DNA from: Lysobacter oculi
Lineage (GTDB): Bacteria; Pseudomonadota; Gammaproteobacteria; Xanthomonadales; Xanthomonadaceae
Reading direction: 5' to 3'
NCBI RefSeq assembly: GCF_003293695.1
Contig: NZ_CP029556.1
Location: 1,250,001-1,314,000, forward strand
Length of the DNA stretch: 64,000 bases
The notes below the pieces were generated by a model. That model was not told the DNA's origin and did not search any database. It saw nothing but the letters and a program-made list of their open reading frames with translations. Shown piece by piece: positions 26,339 to 39,969 of the stretch (positions are counted from its first letter, which is position 1; each line of letters starts with the position of its first letter). A program made the position numbers and the translations under genes.

Positions 26339-27049
26339 ATGCCCAACGAACACGACCACATCGTCAGGAGCTACGACGAGGAACAGCAGCGACTGACCCA
26401 CGAGATCCAGCGCATGGGCGCGATGGCCGTGGCGCAGCTGGAAGCCGCGCTGGACGTGATGGAGCGTCGCGACGACAACGCCGCCGAACGCATCATCGCC
26501 AACGACGAGGCCATCGATGCGCTCGAACACGAAGTCAGCCAGGACGTGATGAAGCTGGCGCTCCGCGGCCCGATGGCCAGCGACCTGCGCATCATCCTGG
26601 CCGCGCTGCGCATCGCCTCCGACATCGAACGCGTGGGTGACTACGCCGCCAACATGGCCAAGCGCTCGATGGTGCTCAACACCGCGCCGCCGGTGCCGCA
26701 TACCGGTGGCCTGCACGCGCTCGGCCGCCTGGCCGCCGAGCAGATGCGCGAAGTCCTGAAGGCCTACAAGGACCTGGACGCCGATGCCGCCCAGCGCGTG
26801 CGCGAGCGCGACACCGAACTGGACCTGCAGTACACTGCACTGTTCCGCGAACTGCTGACCTACATGATGGAAGACCCGCGCAACATCACGCCCTGCACGC
26901 ACCTGCTGTTCATGGCGAAGAACATGGAGCGCATCGGCGACCACGCGACCAACATCGCCGAGAACATCTGGTTCCGCGTGCACGGCGACCAGCACCCGCT
27001 GCCGCCGCGCGAAAAGCGCGACGACAGCAGCGCGATCAGCCGCGCCTGA
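26339..27049 (+). CDS. phoU: Phosphate signalling protein PhoU
   Basis: A 236-residue helical protein with two three-helix repeats. Metal-binding E/D-rich signatures are visible in each: ASDIERVGDYAANMAKRS and AKNMERIGDHATNIAEN. PhoU links the Pst transporter to the PhoR kinase and restrains the Pho response when phosphate is ample. AAAGGACCCC precedes the ATG. No phoB or phoR lies in this window. A terminator follows at 27073. Confidence 0.95.
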   Translation: MPNEHDHIVRSYDEEQQRLTHEIQRMGAMAVAQLEAALDVMERRDDNAAERIIANDEAIDALEHEVSQDVMKLALRGPMASDLRIILAALRIASDIERVGDYAANMAKRSMVLNTAPPVPHTGGLHALGRLAAEQMREVLKAYKDLDADAAQRVRERDTELDLQYTALFRELLTYMMEDPRNITPCTHLLFMAKNMERIGDHATNIAENIWFRVHGDQHPLPPREKRDDSSAISRA

Positions 27050-27072
27050 GGCGCTTTCCACCGTCCGACATG

Positions 27073-27105
27073 CGAAGCCCGCCACCCGGCGGGCTTCGTG
27101 TTTCC
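27073..27105 (+). terminator. Rho-independent terminator of pst-phoU operon
   Basis: CGAAGCCCGCC/GGCGGGCTTCG is an 11-bp perfect stem with a four-base loop and a short T-rich tail, 23 bases after the phoU stop. Confidence 0.85.
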
Positions 27106-27131
27106 GGGCCGATAGCGTTTTCTTTACCCTT

Positions 27132-27156
27132 GGATGGCGCCGCGGCGCTACCATCC
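27132..27156 (+). promoter_or_regulatory. Dyad over the -10 region of the MNIO locus
   Basis: GGATGG and CCATCC arms (27132-27137 and 27151-27156) enclose the perfect palindrome GCGCCGCGGCGC. The right arm overlaps TACCAT (27149-27154), a plausible -10 box, about 30 bases before the precursor start. This could be an operator or a 5' UTR hairpin. The binding factor is unknown. Confidence 0.4.
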
Positions 27157-27182
27157 GCGCATTCCCTCACTGGATGCGTCCG

Positions 27183-27713
27183 ATGACCACCAAGCGCAAC
27201 AAGACCCTCGCCCTCGGCACCCTGGCTGGCGGCATCGCCCTGTCCGGCGCCGCGTTCGCCATCGCCCCCATGGTCTCCGGCTACATGCAGGACGAGCACG
27301 CGGCGCATGAGCACGCCAGCGCCGCGGACCACATGAAGCAGATGGACACCGATGGCGACGGCAAGCTGTCGAAGACGGAATTCGCGGCGGCGCACGGCGG
27401 CAAGACCGACAAGTTCGCCGCGCACGACCTGGACAGCGACGGCTTCATCACCGTGGCCGAGATGGACAAGGCCCACGCCGCGATGGGCGGGAAAAAAGAC
27501 GCCAAGGCCAGCGAAGGCAAATGCGGCGAGGGCAAGTGTGGTGAAGGCAAGTGCGGCGCCGCGCCCGCCAAGGCCGGCGGCAACGACGCCAAGGCCGGCG
27601 AAGGCAAATGTGGCGAGGGCAAGTGCGGCGCCGCGCCCGCCAAGGCCGGCGGCAACGACGCCAAGGCCGGCGAAGGCAAATGTGGCGAGGGCAAGTGCGG
27701 CGGCAGCCTCTGA
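27183..27713 (+). CDS. EF-hand/EGKCG-repeat precursor of an MNIO-modified copper-binding RiPP
   Basis: A 176-residue exported protein. Residues 1-26 are a signal peptide (LGTLAGGIALSGAAFA). A His/Met-rich stretch is followed by two canonical 12-residue EF-hand loops, DTDGDGKLSKTE (55-66) and DLDSDGFITVAE (82-93). The C-terminal third carries seven EGKCG motifs (Cys114, 119, 124, 143, 148, 167, 172) separated by AAPAKAGGNDAKAG linkers. EGKCG is the motif that the Haemophilus HvfBC pair modifies in HvfA to copper-binding oxazolone/thioamide groups, and the genes for that enzyme pair follow directly. The start is uncertain; ATG at 27174 is an alternative. Confidence 0.85.
   Translation: MTTKRNKTLALGTLAGGIALSGAAFAIAPMVSGYMQDEHAAHEHASAADHMKQMDTDGDGKLSKTEFAAAHGGKTDKFAAHDLDSDGFITVAEMDKAHAAMGGKKDAKASEGKCGEGKCGEGKCGAAPAKAGGNDAKAGEGKCGEGKCGAAPAKAGGNDAKAGEGKCGEGKCGGSL
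27546..27689 (+). repeat. Perfect 72-bp tandem duplication inside the precursor gene
   Basis: Two identical 72-base copies (27546-27617 and 27618-27689) are followed by the first bases of a third. Each encodes 24 residues with two EGKCG motifs and one linker. The copies show no base difference, including at synonymous positions, which points to recent expansion or gene conversion of the modification-site array. Confidence 0.9.
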
Positions 27714-27735
27714 CCCGCACGCCCGGTTTGATGGA

Positions 27736-27755
27736 GGGCGCCTCACGGGGCGCCC
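27736..27755 (+). terminator. Hairpin between precursor and MNIO genes
   Basis: GGGCGCC/GGCGCCC form a 7-bp stem with a six-base loop, followed by TTCGC rather than a T-run. It probably acts as a partial terminator or RNA-stabilising hairpin, leaving more precursor mRNA than enzyme mRNA. Confidence 0.55.
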
Positions 27756-27777
27756 TTCGCATTGAAGGCGACCGGTG

Positions 27778-28602
27778 ATGCACGCGGAACACGGCATGGC
27801 GATGGTGGGCCTCGGCCTGCGCCGGGGATTGATGGATGCCATCGCGTCCGCGCCCGCCGGTGATTTCGATTTCCTCGAATGCGCGCCGGAGAACTGGATC
27901 GGCGTCGGTGGCGCGCTCGGCGCCCGCTTCGACGCGCTGGCCGCGCGCTTTCCGGTCACCCTGCACGGTTTGTCACTCTCGCTCGGGGGCGCCGAGCCGC
28001 TGGATGACGCATTGCTCGACGGCATCGCCGGCTTCATGCAGCGGCACGGCATCCACCACTACAGCGAACACCTGAGCTACAGCGCCGATGACGGCCATCT
28101 CTACGACCTGATGCCGCTGGCCTTCGACGAAGTGACCGTGGCGCACGTCGCCGCACGCATCGACCAGGTGCAACAGCGCCTCGGCCGGCGCATCGCCATC
28201 GAAAACGTCAGCTATTACGCCGCGCCCTGGCAGCGCATGCCGGAAGCGGACTTCATCAACGCGGTGATCGATGCCGGCGACTGCGACTTGCTGCTCGACG
28301 TCAACAACGTCTTCGTCAACGCGATCAACCACGGCTACGACGCCCGCGCCTTCATCGACGCGATGCCGACCGCGCGCATCGCCGGTTATCACATTGCCGG
28401 CCATTACGACGAAGCCGACGACCTCAAGATCGACACCCACGGCGCGGCGGTGAAAGACGATGTCTGGGCCCTGCTCGACCACACCTATGCGCGCCACGGC
28501 GTGCAGCCGACGCTGCTCGAACGCGACTTCAACTACCCCGCATGGCCTGAACTACAACACGAACTCTCGCGCATCCGCACCCTGCAGGCGGCACACGCAT
28601 GA
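27778..28602 (+). CDS. Multinuclear non-heme iron oxidative enzyme (MNIO, DUF692; BufB/HvfB-like)
   Basis: A 274-residue TIM-barrel enzyme of the DUF692/MNIO family. Metal-ligand positions are visible in order: [10 protein letters not shown] (His), HYSEHLSYS (Glu-His), [10 protein letters not shown] (Glu), [15 protein letters not shown] (Asp-Asn), [10 protein letters not shown] (His), KIDTHGAAV (Asp-His) and LLERDFN (Glu). These enzymes use two or three iron ions and O2 to rewrite Cys residues in RiPP precursors. The adjacent EGKCG precursor and DUF2063 partner make oxazolone/thioamide formation the most likely reaction. The next gene overlaps by ATGA. A GTG one codon upstream is an alternative start. 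Confidence 0.92.
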
Positions 28603-29351
28603 GCGCGCACGACGACCGCCTGCGCGACCGCCAGTTCGCCTTCGCCGCCCATCTGCGCGACGCCGCGAATCCGCCGCCGCCCGGCATCGAACCGCGCCGC
28701 ATGGCGGTCTATCGCGAGCTGTTCCGCGCCACGCTGGAATCGCTGCTTGCCGCCAACTTCCCGGTCATCCGCAGGACGCTGGGCGATGATGCGTGGATGA
28801 CGCTGGTCGGCGATTTCCATCGCGAACATCGCTGCGCCACGCCGCTGTTCACCGAGATCGCGCCGGAGTTCATCGCCTGGCTCGCCGACAACGTCGAACG
28901 CCTTCCGTCGTGGCTGCCGGAGCTCGCGCATTACGAATGGATGGAACTGCGCGCGCAGATCGACGATGCGCCGCTGCCGCCGCACGCGCCCGATGGCGAC
29001 CTGCTGACCGGCGTACCGGTGCTGTCACCGCAGGCCTGGCCGCTGGCCTACGCGTGGCCGGTGGACCGGATCGGGCCGGCGTTCCAGCCCGCATCTTCCC
29101 CGGTTGAACCGACCTTGCTGCTGGTGCGCCGCGATGCCGCGATGCAGGTGCATTTCGCGAGACTATCGGCGCTCGCCTTCCGGCTGCTGCAGATGATCGA
29201 GGCCGACGAAGGCCACAGCGGCCAGACGCTCATCGATGCACTGGCGCACGAAGCCGGCCTGCCCGATGACGCGGCCTTCGCCCACGATGCGCGCGCGATG
29301 CTGCAGCGCCTGCGTGACGAGGGCACGGTGATCGGTATACGCAGCCGCTAA
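28599..29351 (+). CDS. DUF2063 partner protein of the MNIO enzyme (BufC/HvfC-like)
   Basis: A 250-residue protein. The N-terminal DUF2063 domain reads [52 protein letters not shown], with the family's Y(R) and FPV elements. A central domain ([16 protein letters not shown]) and a C-terminal winged-helix-like region that resembles RiPP recognition elements follow. HvfC-type proteins deliver the precursor to the MNIO enzyme. Its start overlaps the MNIO stop. No DoxX-like fourth gene follows, so this locus is a minimal A-B-C set. Confidence 0.9.
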
Positions 29352-29360
29352 ACTGCGTGC

Positions 29361-30026
29361 ATGCCCGACGCCCCGCCTCCCCACAAACCCATGACCATGG
29401 CCACCCGTTTCCGCGGCTTCCTGCCGGTGGTGGTCGATGTGGAAACCGGCGGCTTCGACTGGAACCGCCACGCGTTGTTGGAAATCGCCGCGATTCCGCT
29501 GGAGATGGACGAAGACGGACGTCTTTACCCCGGCAAGACCGCGTGCGCGCACCTGCATCCCGCGCCCGGCACCGACATCGATCCCAAGTCACTCGCGGTG
29601 ACCGGCATCCAGCTCGATCATCCGTTCCGGCTGGCGAAGGAAGAGAAAGAAGGCCTGGAGCATGTGTTCGCCCCGGTGCGCGAGGCGGTGAAGCGGCAGG
29701 GCTGCCAGCGCGCGATCCTGGTCGGGCACAACGCGCACTTCGACCTCAACTTCCTCAATGCCGCGGTCGCGCGCAGCAAGCACAAGCGCAATCCGTTCCA
29801 CCCCTTCAGCGTGTTCGACACGGTGACGATGGCCGGCCTGGCCTACGGACAGACCGTGCTCGCACGCGCGGTGCAGGCGGCCGGGCTGACATGGAATTCG
29901 GCGGATGCGCATTCGGCCGTGTACGACGCCGAGATCACCGCCGAGTTGTTCTGCCGCATCGCCAATGCATGGCCGATGCAGCTGCCGGTCAGCCCTGCTG
30001 TGGAGATGGCCGACGACGCGACCTGA
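29361..30026 (+). CDS. rnt: Ribonuclease T
   Basis: A 221-residue DEDD-family 3'-5' exoribonuclease that trims tRNA CCA ends and 5S/23S rRNA. Exo I is [11 protein letters not shown], Exo II is [13 protein letters not shown], and Exo III is [14 protein letters not shown], with all four acidic residues and the DEDDh His. A TAAACT box lies exactly six bases before the first ATG, so a leaderless mRNA starting at this ATG is likely; Met at codons 11 and 13 are alternatives. The last 38 bases overlap the oppositely oriented small membrane protein gene. Confidence 0.92.
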
Positions 30027-39240: not shown

Positions 39241-39969
39241 ATGGTCAGCCCCGTTCCACGCGACGCAATCGATTACGCGGCCCAGACGCTTGACCAGCTG
39301 GTGGTGCTGGCCCGGACCGGCCACCGCGAGGCGTTCCGGCACCTGATGCAAAAATGCAATCAGCGCCTGTTCCGCACCGCCCGCGCCGTGCTCAACGACG
39401 ATGCCGAAGCCGAGGACGCGCTGCAGTAGGCCTATATCAAGGCCTTCCGTGCGCTGCAGGCCTTTCGCGGCGATGCCGCCGTCACCACCTGGCTGACCCG
39501 CATCGTGCTCAACGAGTGCTACGCGCGATTGCGCCAGCGTCATCCCACGGTCGATCTGGACCAGGTCGATGCCGCGCGTGGCGACGCCCGCATCCTTCAA
39601 TTCCCCACGAGGTTCGGCATGGAAGATCCGGCCAATTCCGCTTCACGCCTGCAGATGCGCGGGTTCATCGAAAACGCCATCGCCGCGCTGCCCGAAGCCT
39701 TCCGCGTGGTCTTCGTGATGCGCGACATCGAGGAATGCAGCACCGAGGAAACCGCCGAGGCGCTCGGCATCCTGCCGGAAACGGTGAAGACGCGGCTGCA
39801 TCGCGCGCGCCGGCAATTGCGCCTGGCGCTGGAGGAATCCGTCGCGTCCTCGCTGGGCGATGCCTTCCCCTTCCTGGGCCCGCGCTGCGCACGCCTGACC
39901 GACGCGGTCATGCAGCGCCTGCCCGTTGCCGCACCGATGCCACATCCCACCCACCCCGGAGAACACTGA
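39241..39969 (+). pseudogene. ECF-type RNA polymerase sigma factor, interrupted by an in-frame TAG
   Basis: Region 2 reads GHREAFRHLMQKCNQRLFRTARAVLNDDAEAEDALQ, then TAG (39427-39429, codon 63), then AYIKAFRALQAFRGDAAVTTWLTRIVLN in the same frame. Family members have Glu or Asp at this position (DALQEAYIKAF), so a GAG to TAG change is the simplest explanation. Region 4 follows intact (AIAALPEAFRVVFVMRDIEECSTEETAEALGI, TVKTRLHRARRQL). CGAGGACTCCAG precedes the chosen ATG. Unless the stop is read through, region 4 is separated from region 2 and the factor is non-functional. Confidence 0.8.

Follow-up and report, generated by a model that had tools for sequence, protein, structure and literature searches.

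The window analyzed here is a stretch of 64,000 nucleotides of Lysobacter oculi DNA, and the locus of interest consists of three genes on its forward (+) strand: an HvfA-like RiPP precursor gene (27183..27713, identified by its open reading frame and profile matches), hvfB, which encodes an MNIO (DUF692) enzyme (27775..28602), and hvfC, which encodes a DUF2063 partner (28599..29351). The open reading frame of the precursor, 27174-27713, encodes 179 amino acids from the ATG at 27174, or 176 from a start at 27183; we prefer the latter start because the homologues P0001-P0003 begin with MTTKR or MTPKR at the equivalent position. The protein opens with a Sec-type signal peptide, MTTKRNKTLALGTLAGGIALSGAAFA (27183..27260, read from the sequence), which would be cut after AFA, a site that we placed by eye. 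It continues with an EF-hand pair and ends in seven EGKCG core motifs, arranged in blocks of 3+2+2 (27513..27701, by motif count). Open reading frame, profiles and motif count agree with the earlier note on this DNA, in which a signal peptide, two EF-hand loops of canonical form and seven EGKCG motifs had been described.

The repeat model NF050137 (KCGExKCG) scores 48.3 bits on the precursor, against a cut-off of 19.5. The full-length HvfA model NF050188 gives 41.5 bits, below its cut-off of 95, perhaps because of the extra domain; by this model the precursor is not an HvfA equivalog, though it may still work in an HvfA-like way. Two other identities, lanmodulin (LanM equivalog NF053806, 18.9 bits against a cut-off of 135) and the XopAW calcium-binding effector subfamily (NF041410, 34.5 bits against a cut-off of 120), were dropped, as their scores fall below the cut-offs. 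Among the 120 homologues listed, out of 1858 matches, 119 combine an EF loop with KC motifs under a relaxed pattern. We aligned the window's precursor with 41 of these 120, giving an alignment, A1, of 42 sequences. Three histidines stand out in A1 (numbering from 27183): H71 is fully conserved, H81 and H98 almost fully, and they could possibly form a further metal site.

The hvfB gene starts at either GTG 27775 or ATG 27778. Its product matches PF05114 (326 bits) and the ‘HvfB family’ model NF003818 (392 bits, cut-off 360), it resembles PDB 3bww at E 1.1e-67, and it is the single PF05114 match in the whole genome. Its score with the BufB equivalog model NF050167, 257.9 bits, is below the cut-off of 310. 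The hvfC product matches NF050145 (278 bits, cut-off 142) as well as PF09836 and PF22106, and resembles PDB 3dee at E 5.1e-05. We compared the locus with a named set of 81 MNIO loci, comprising the window and the best 80 of 179 confirmed loci, and thus biased towards near relatives. Residues H64, E98, H99, E143, N144, D175, N178, H206, D212, H222 and E249 of the enzyme are invariant in 81/81 rows, and presumably include the putative iron ligands. The description of a DUF692 enzyme with a full set of putative ligands (these 11 residues), whose gene overlaps that of a DUF2063 partner by ATGA, is therefore borne out.

A recognizable EGKCG precursor accompanies the enzyme at 69 of the 81 named loci; at the other 12, none is found by pattern. 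Eight loci (L057, L058, L066, L068, L069, L071, L073 and L080), from Piscirickettsiaceae/Methylophaga and unclassified gammaproteobacteria, are HvfB-HvfC pairs of this precursor-less kind, and may have a substrate of another type. We also surveyed the class, in which EGKCG repeats occur in 98 of 369 genomes. The resulting class-wide set contains 72 regions from 67 of those 98 genomes, with a precursor found in 71; it leaves out contig-edge matches and weak or unlisted ones, including G012 and G165 from the window's own family, and this selection may undercount EF-type precursors with few repeats. In 17 of the 72 regions, each 5-6 kb long, there is an EGKCG-repeat gene and no MNIO match above 100 bits (e.g. 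L117, L126, L129, L142, L160 and L182). Closer to the window, 78 of 99 family genomes have PF05114 matches, some of which may not be of the HvfB kind. In the genus, 11 of 17 genomes give a precursor match, several of these being weak, so that the precursor is not universal even there.

The two EF-hand loops of the precursor, DTDGDGKLSKTE (27345..27380) and DLDSDGFITVAE (27426..27461), were located with EF-hand models and AlphaFold, and both are canonical by sequence. PF13202 scores 36.6 bits (cut-off 25.9) and PF13499 scores 34.3 bits (cut-off 30). An AlphaFold model built with 42 sequences has a mean pLDDT of 57.5; the EF-hand pair is confident, with block means of 84-94 at residues 51-100, and confidence is low outside it. 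Foldseek with this model returned 876 matches at E ≤ 10, none of them at E ≤ 0.001; all 50 of those listed are EF-hand proteins or complexes of such proteins. Across the 40 EF-type loci of the named set, window included, with the loops placed by alignment, Asp at position 1 and Glu at position 12 are found in 40/40 in both loops, Asp at position 5 in 39/40 (loop 1) and 40/40 (loop 2), and Gly at position 6 of loop 2 in 40/40, all of these figures being inflated because the rows were first picked for at least one loop pattern. By analogy with its relatives, the L. oculi precursor would bind Ca2+.

EF-hand precursors occur at 40 of the 69 named loci that have a precursor, the window among them. 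Such fusions are common in Lysobacteraceae and occur in Pseudomonas and Cupriavidus rows as well; the remaining 29 of the 69 precursors lack EF-hands. Class-wide, EF-hands appear in 3 of 71 precursors, in a sample weighted towards strong repeat scores, from which EF-types with few repeats may be missing. The fusion itself had been thought to set the locus apart, but EF-hand/EGKCG fusions adjoining MNIO genes are already in print (PMC12452194). What does differ is the order of domains. In the published description the EF-hands lie C-terminal to a short EGKCG domain, and the available text of PMC12452194 contains no other order. In the window's precursor both EF-hands lie ahead of all seven EGKCG motifs (0-EF2-7), and among the 40 EF-type precursors 33 have the order EGKCG-EF-EGKCG, five EGKCG-EF, and two, those of the window and L015, EF-EGKCG. 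Judged by sequence, it is this EF-first order that sets the window's precursor apart from the published description. The number of core repeats seems easily changed, since P0001, the closest homologue listed, is one 24-residue unit shorter than the 176-residue precursor, matching a 72-bp tandem unit found at 27524-27702 (2.5 copies, 96% matches).

A further feature shared across precursors is a segment of the form F-x4-M/L-x2-GY (27255..27284, +), a candidate recognition site that lies across the signal-peptide junction. Under a strict pattern, F.{2,5}[LM]..GY, it occurs in 66/69 named precursors at full length, with EF-hands or without, and in 63/69 within the first 110 residues, compared with 6/3179 and 3/3179, respectively, for other ORFs, a background that includes spurious frames. 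Class-wide the strict pattern occurs in 55/71 precursors; of the 16 misses, several begin at contig ends, some are variants such as QFSNGY, and others are without the segment. A looser pattern, [LIMV]xx[GA]Y, occurs in 68/69 named precursors, 55/71 class-wide and 118/3179 background ORFs. All 42 sequences of A1 keep F25 and Y34. These pattern counts suggest that the segment is likely to be the recognition site of HvfBC. HvfA without its signal sequence receives less than one modification per peptide from HvfBC (PMC13419390), and the same paper cites a bufferin paper as proposing the same idea about the signal sequence. Because the segment spans the expected signal-peptidase site, as placed by eye, cleavage would destroy it, and we infer that modification must precede export; the junction segment offers a simple way to test why this is so. 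The available texts of PMC12452194, PMC12668002 and PMC13419390 contain no statement of the motif, which may be in print, sequence patterns not being searchable in the literature.

Upstream of the precursor, at a distance of 125 bp, lies phoU (26339..27049, +; PF01895, 145 bits), and a phoU homologue is present within 1.5 kb upstream at 41 of the 69 loci with a precursor. A hairpin after phoU (27074..27097, +, read from the sequence) is a possible phoU terminator, a weak reading because the terminator scan did not report it. At 30 of the 69 named loci an ECF sigma gene lies upstream of the precursor (e.g. L006, L012, L014, L016, L019, L020 and L024; Pfam confirms it on L016), and in 19/19 loci having both it is nearer the precursor than phoU is, which suggests a dedicated regulation. 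There is no ECF sigma gene upstream of the window's precursor, where such regulation would be missing. Relocation of this gene elsewhere in the genome was considered and rejected, the three matches being 30-33% identical at 34-38 bits. An ECF-sigma-like match with one in-frame TAG lies at 39301-39831 (+) of the window. Promoter and Rfam scans of 26900-29600 returned nothing useful and no promoter match, and inspection by eye of the regions upstream of 25 near loci gave no convincing operator, with a -10-like GCTAC(A/C)AT in several.

Between the precursor and hvfB, RNA folding of the intergenic region identifies a G+C-rich hairpin (27729..27761, +). The region 27714-27774 folds at -30.9 kcal/mol (z -2.68), and 0/200 shuffles fold as well; of the 25 near loci listed, window included, 14 have a fold after the precursor that reaches -30 kcal/mol or below, its stem and length varying from locus to locus. 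Perhaps this hairpin sets the dosage of precursor to enzyme. Downstream of hvfC lies an RNase_T-type exonuclease gene (29361..30026, +; PF00929, 69 bits), and an exonuclease-like gene also follows hvfC in L002. Neither of the two neighbours tested, phoU and the exonuclease gene, is a copper gene.

Elsewhere the genome encodes the multicopper oxidase CopA (TIGR01480, 915 bits), so copper handling is present in the genome; nothing ties CopA to the locus. CopA contains a Met/Cys-rich insert with MKCGAGMCG (C1:884180-884263; L083, about 1501-1585), which scores 21.4 bits with NF050137 (cut-off 19.5). This insert is the genome's other NF050137 match, and the idea of a second precursor was dropped accordingly. 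An MNIO-modified CopA was likewise set aside: [KR]CG occurs in 13 of the 120 CopA homologues listed (of 8000 matches), exactly the 13 nearest rows. EGSCG or EGGCG variants stand at the insert in a number of the other CopA homologues listed.

We conclude, with a probability of roughly 0.85, that the locus is a three-gene HvfABC-type system of the oxazolin/captophorin/Buf_EGKCG kind, in which the EF-hand pair of the precursor follows the signal peptide and precedes the modifiable repeats, and that it works as follows. HvfC would hold the precursor by its signal peptide and FxxxxLxxGY segment, while HvfB, acting in the cytoplasm, would turn the EGKCG cysteines into 5-thiooxazoles by oxidation. 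Export of the modified product by Sec would come next, with signal peptidase cutting within the recognition segment. The thiooxazole tail would then bind copper in the periplasm, where the EF-hand pair would take up Ca2+. Each of these elements, that is, the modification chemistry, the signal peptide as leader, and the binding of copper and calcium, is carried over from characterized relatives. The product of oxazolin maturation, which the earlier note gave as oxazolone/thioamide, has since been reassigned to 5-thiooxazole (PMC12668002, PMC13419390), and the related fontiphorin and gonophorin bind copper (PMC12668002). On the calcium side, EfhP of Pseudomonas aeruginosa, which combines a pair of EF-hands with four EGKCG repeats (PMC11559002), binds Ca2+ selectively with a Kd of 13.7 uM, and its decalcified form gives a poorly dispersed NMR spectrum (PMC9132961). 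The exported metal buffer with an EF domain that had been proposed for this DNA survives as an HvfABC-type MNIO RiPP locus, probably a metal buffer, with less novelty than was claimed. Counting against our explanation are the EfhP work, which in the available texts points to calcium and iron regulation and not to copper (PMC11559002, PMC9132961), together with the low score of the precursor on the full-length HvfA model, the two neighbours without a copper role, the lack of a promoter match, the precursor-less MNIO loci (12/81), the repeat regions without an MNIO (17/72), and the non-universality of the precursor in the genus.

How the two metals might be connected is more speculative; Ca2+ binding may tune or anchor the copper buffer. 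One version of this idea, which draws on the same thiooxazole chemistry and on the Ca2+ binding and NMR behavior of EfhP, is that the EF pair is a calcium-operated folding switch for the RiPP, unfolded in the low-Ca2+ cytoplasm and folded by periplasmic calcium after export. In EF-type loci the EGKCG cores start 76-134 residues beyond the signal-peptide/FxxxxLxxGY segment, and an unfolded EF pair would let HvfBC hold that segment and yet reach these distant cores. Following export and loss of the recognition site, Ca2+ folding would lock in the modified copper-binding tail, and copper buffering would thereby be coupled to calcium. We consider this switch rather unlikely; if it were true, the ‘calcium sensors’ of the EfhP type would be thiooxazole-modified two-metal proteins that have been studied recombinantly without their MNIO.

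Alternatively, calcium sensing in the manner of EfhP may be the main role of the protein, with the modified cysteines adding no more than a redox- or iron-responsive input and copper buffering being secondary. The EF ligands are well conserved, EfhP is Ca2+-selective and required for Ca2+ induction of pyocyanin (PMC9132961), and its EGKCG repeats have been proposed as iron sensors (PMC11559002). However, relatives without EF-hands have the same enzymes, cores and recognition segment, which argues for a separate function of the modified tail, and the characterized EGKCG products bind copper (PMC12668002). We therefore regard a primary role in calcium sensing as unlikely. It is similarly unlikely that the EF-hands are non-regulatory and act as a module for solubility or folding, preventing a copper-loaded tail that tends to aggregate from coming out of solution in the periplasm. 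Fontiphorin did precipitate upon copper loading (PMC12668002), and the EF-type is patchy, with at least five state changes on the MNIO tree and few class-wide examples (the 3/71 given above, which may miss EF-types with few repeats). Nonetheless, the EF ligand residues, beyond the fold, are kept in 40/40 rows, albeit rows first picked by loop pattern.

The fourth gene of some related operons, doxX, raises a final alternative. PF07681 (DoxX) has no match at E ≤ 0.001 anywhere in the L. oculi genome, and the lack of this gene had been taken to distinguish the locus; yet 36/38 near EF-type loci with room downstream are without a downstream doxX. Among near loci the gene lies downstream in 24/29 without EF-hands versus 2/38 with them (Fisher p 3e-11), a count from which the 12 precursor-less loci were omitted, along with L062 and L064, which have no room downstream, and in which four loci without EF-hands (L029, L031, L061 and L077, with an early-starting doxX ORF) were assigned to ‘downstream’ by hand. 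Pfam confirms doxX on L024. That the EF-hand fusion replaces DoxX in the operon is nevertheless very improbable, since there are just three supported independent contrasts (five on all branches; sign test p 0.25-1), doxX lies in the region of 3/3 class-wide EF-type loci (in L138 and L168 it is downstream, in L184 upstream) as against 31/68 without EF-hands, and L025 and L027 have it upstream and L075 nearby on the other strand. The contrasts and the class-wide regions point at most to loss of doxX in a lineage.

The locus is, then, ordinary in kind. Its place in a family already described is well supported, and its form is a reduced one, with three genes and an EF-first precursor. What makes it worth testing is the two-metal question that EfhP raises. 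If modified as predicted, the precursor would be a single exported protein with two ways of binding metal, enzyme-made heterocycles for copper and EF-hands for calcium, and studies of the EfhP group as calcium sensors would have to be re-read in the light of the modified protein.

Among known systems, the HvfABC oxazolin of Haemophilus influenzae, fontiphorin and gonophorin share with the window the families of enzyme and partner and the EGKCG cores, and HvfA, B and C are likewise encoded in one operon; their precursors, in contrast to the window's, have no EF-hands mentioned in the available texts, and the hvf operon includes hvfX, a DoxX-like gene for which the window has no counterpart (PMC13419390, PMC12668002). 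Bufferins Buf1 and Buf2 of Caulobacter also combine an MNIO and a DUF2063 partner with an exported, copper-protective product, but their precursors belong to families other than the window's (PMC12452194). The Buf_EGKC|EF-hand_5 chimaera is MNIO-linked as well, starts with a helix or a signal peptide and contains EGKCG motifs along with two EF-hands (PMC12452194); its EF-hands follow a short N-terminal EGKCG stretch, whereas those of the window precede seven such motifs. EfhP resembles the window in its exported EF-hand pair, its EGKCG repeats (four) and the adjoining DUF692 and DUF2063 genes, with which it appears to be operonic (PA4107-PA4106-PA4105; PMC4053335). The available text of that paper names no DoxX for the operon, and the likeness to the window is drawn by description. 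EfhP has been studied as a Ca2+ sensor, and MNIO modification is not mentioned in the available texts of PMC4053335, PMC9132961 and PMC11559002.
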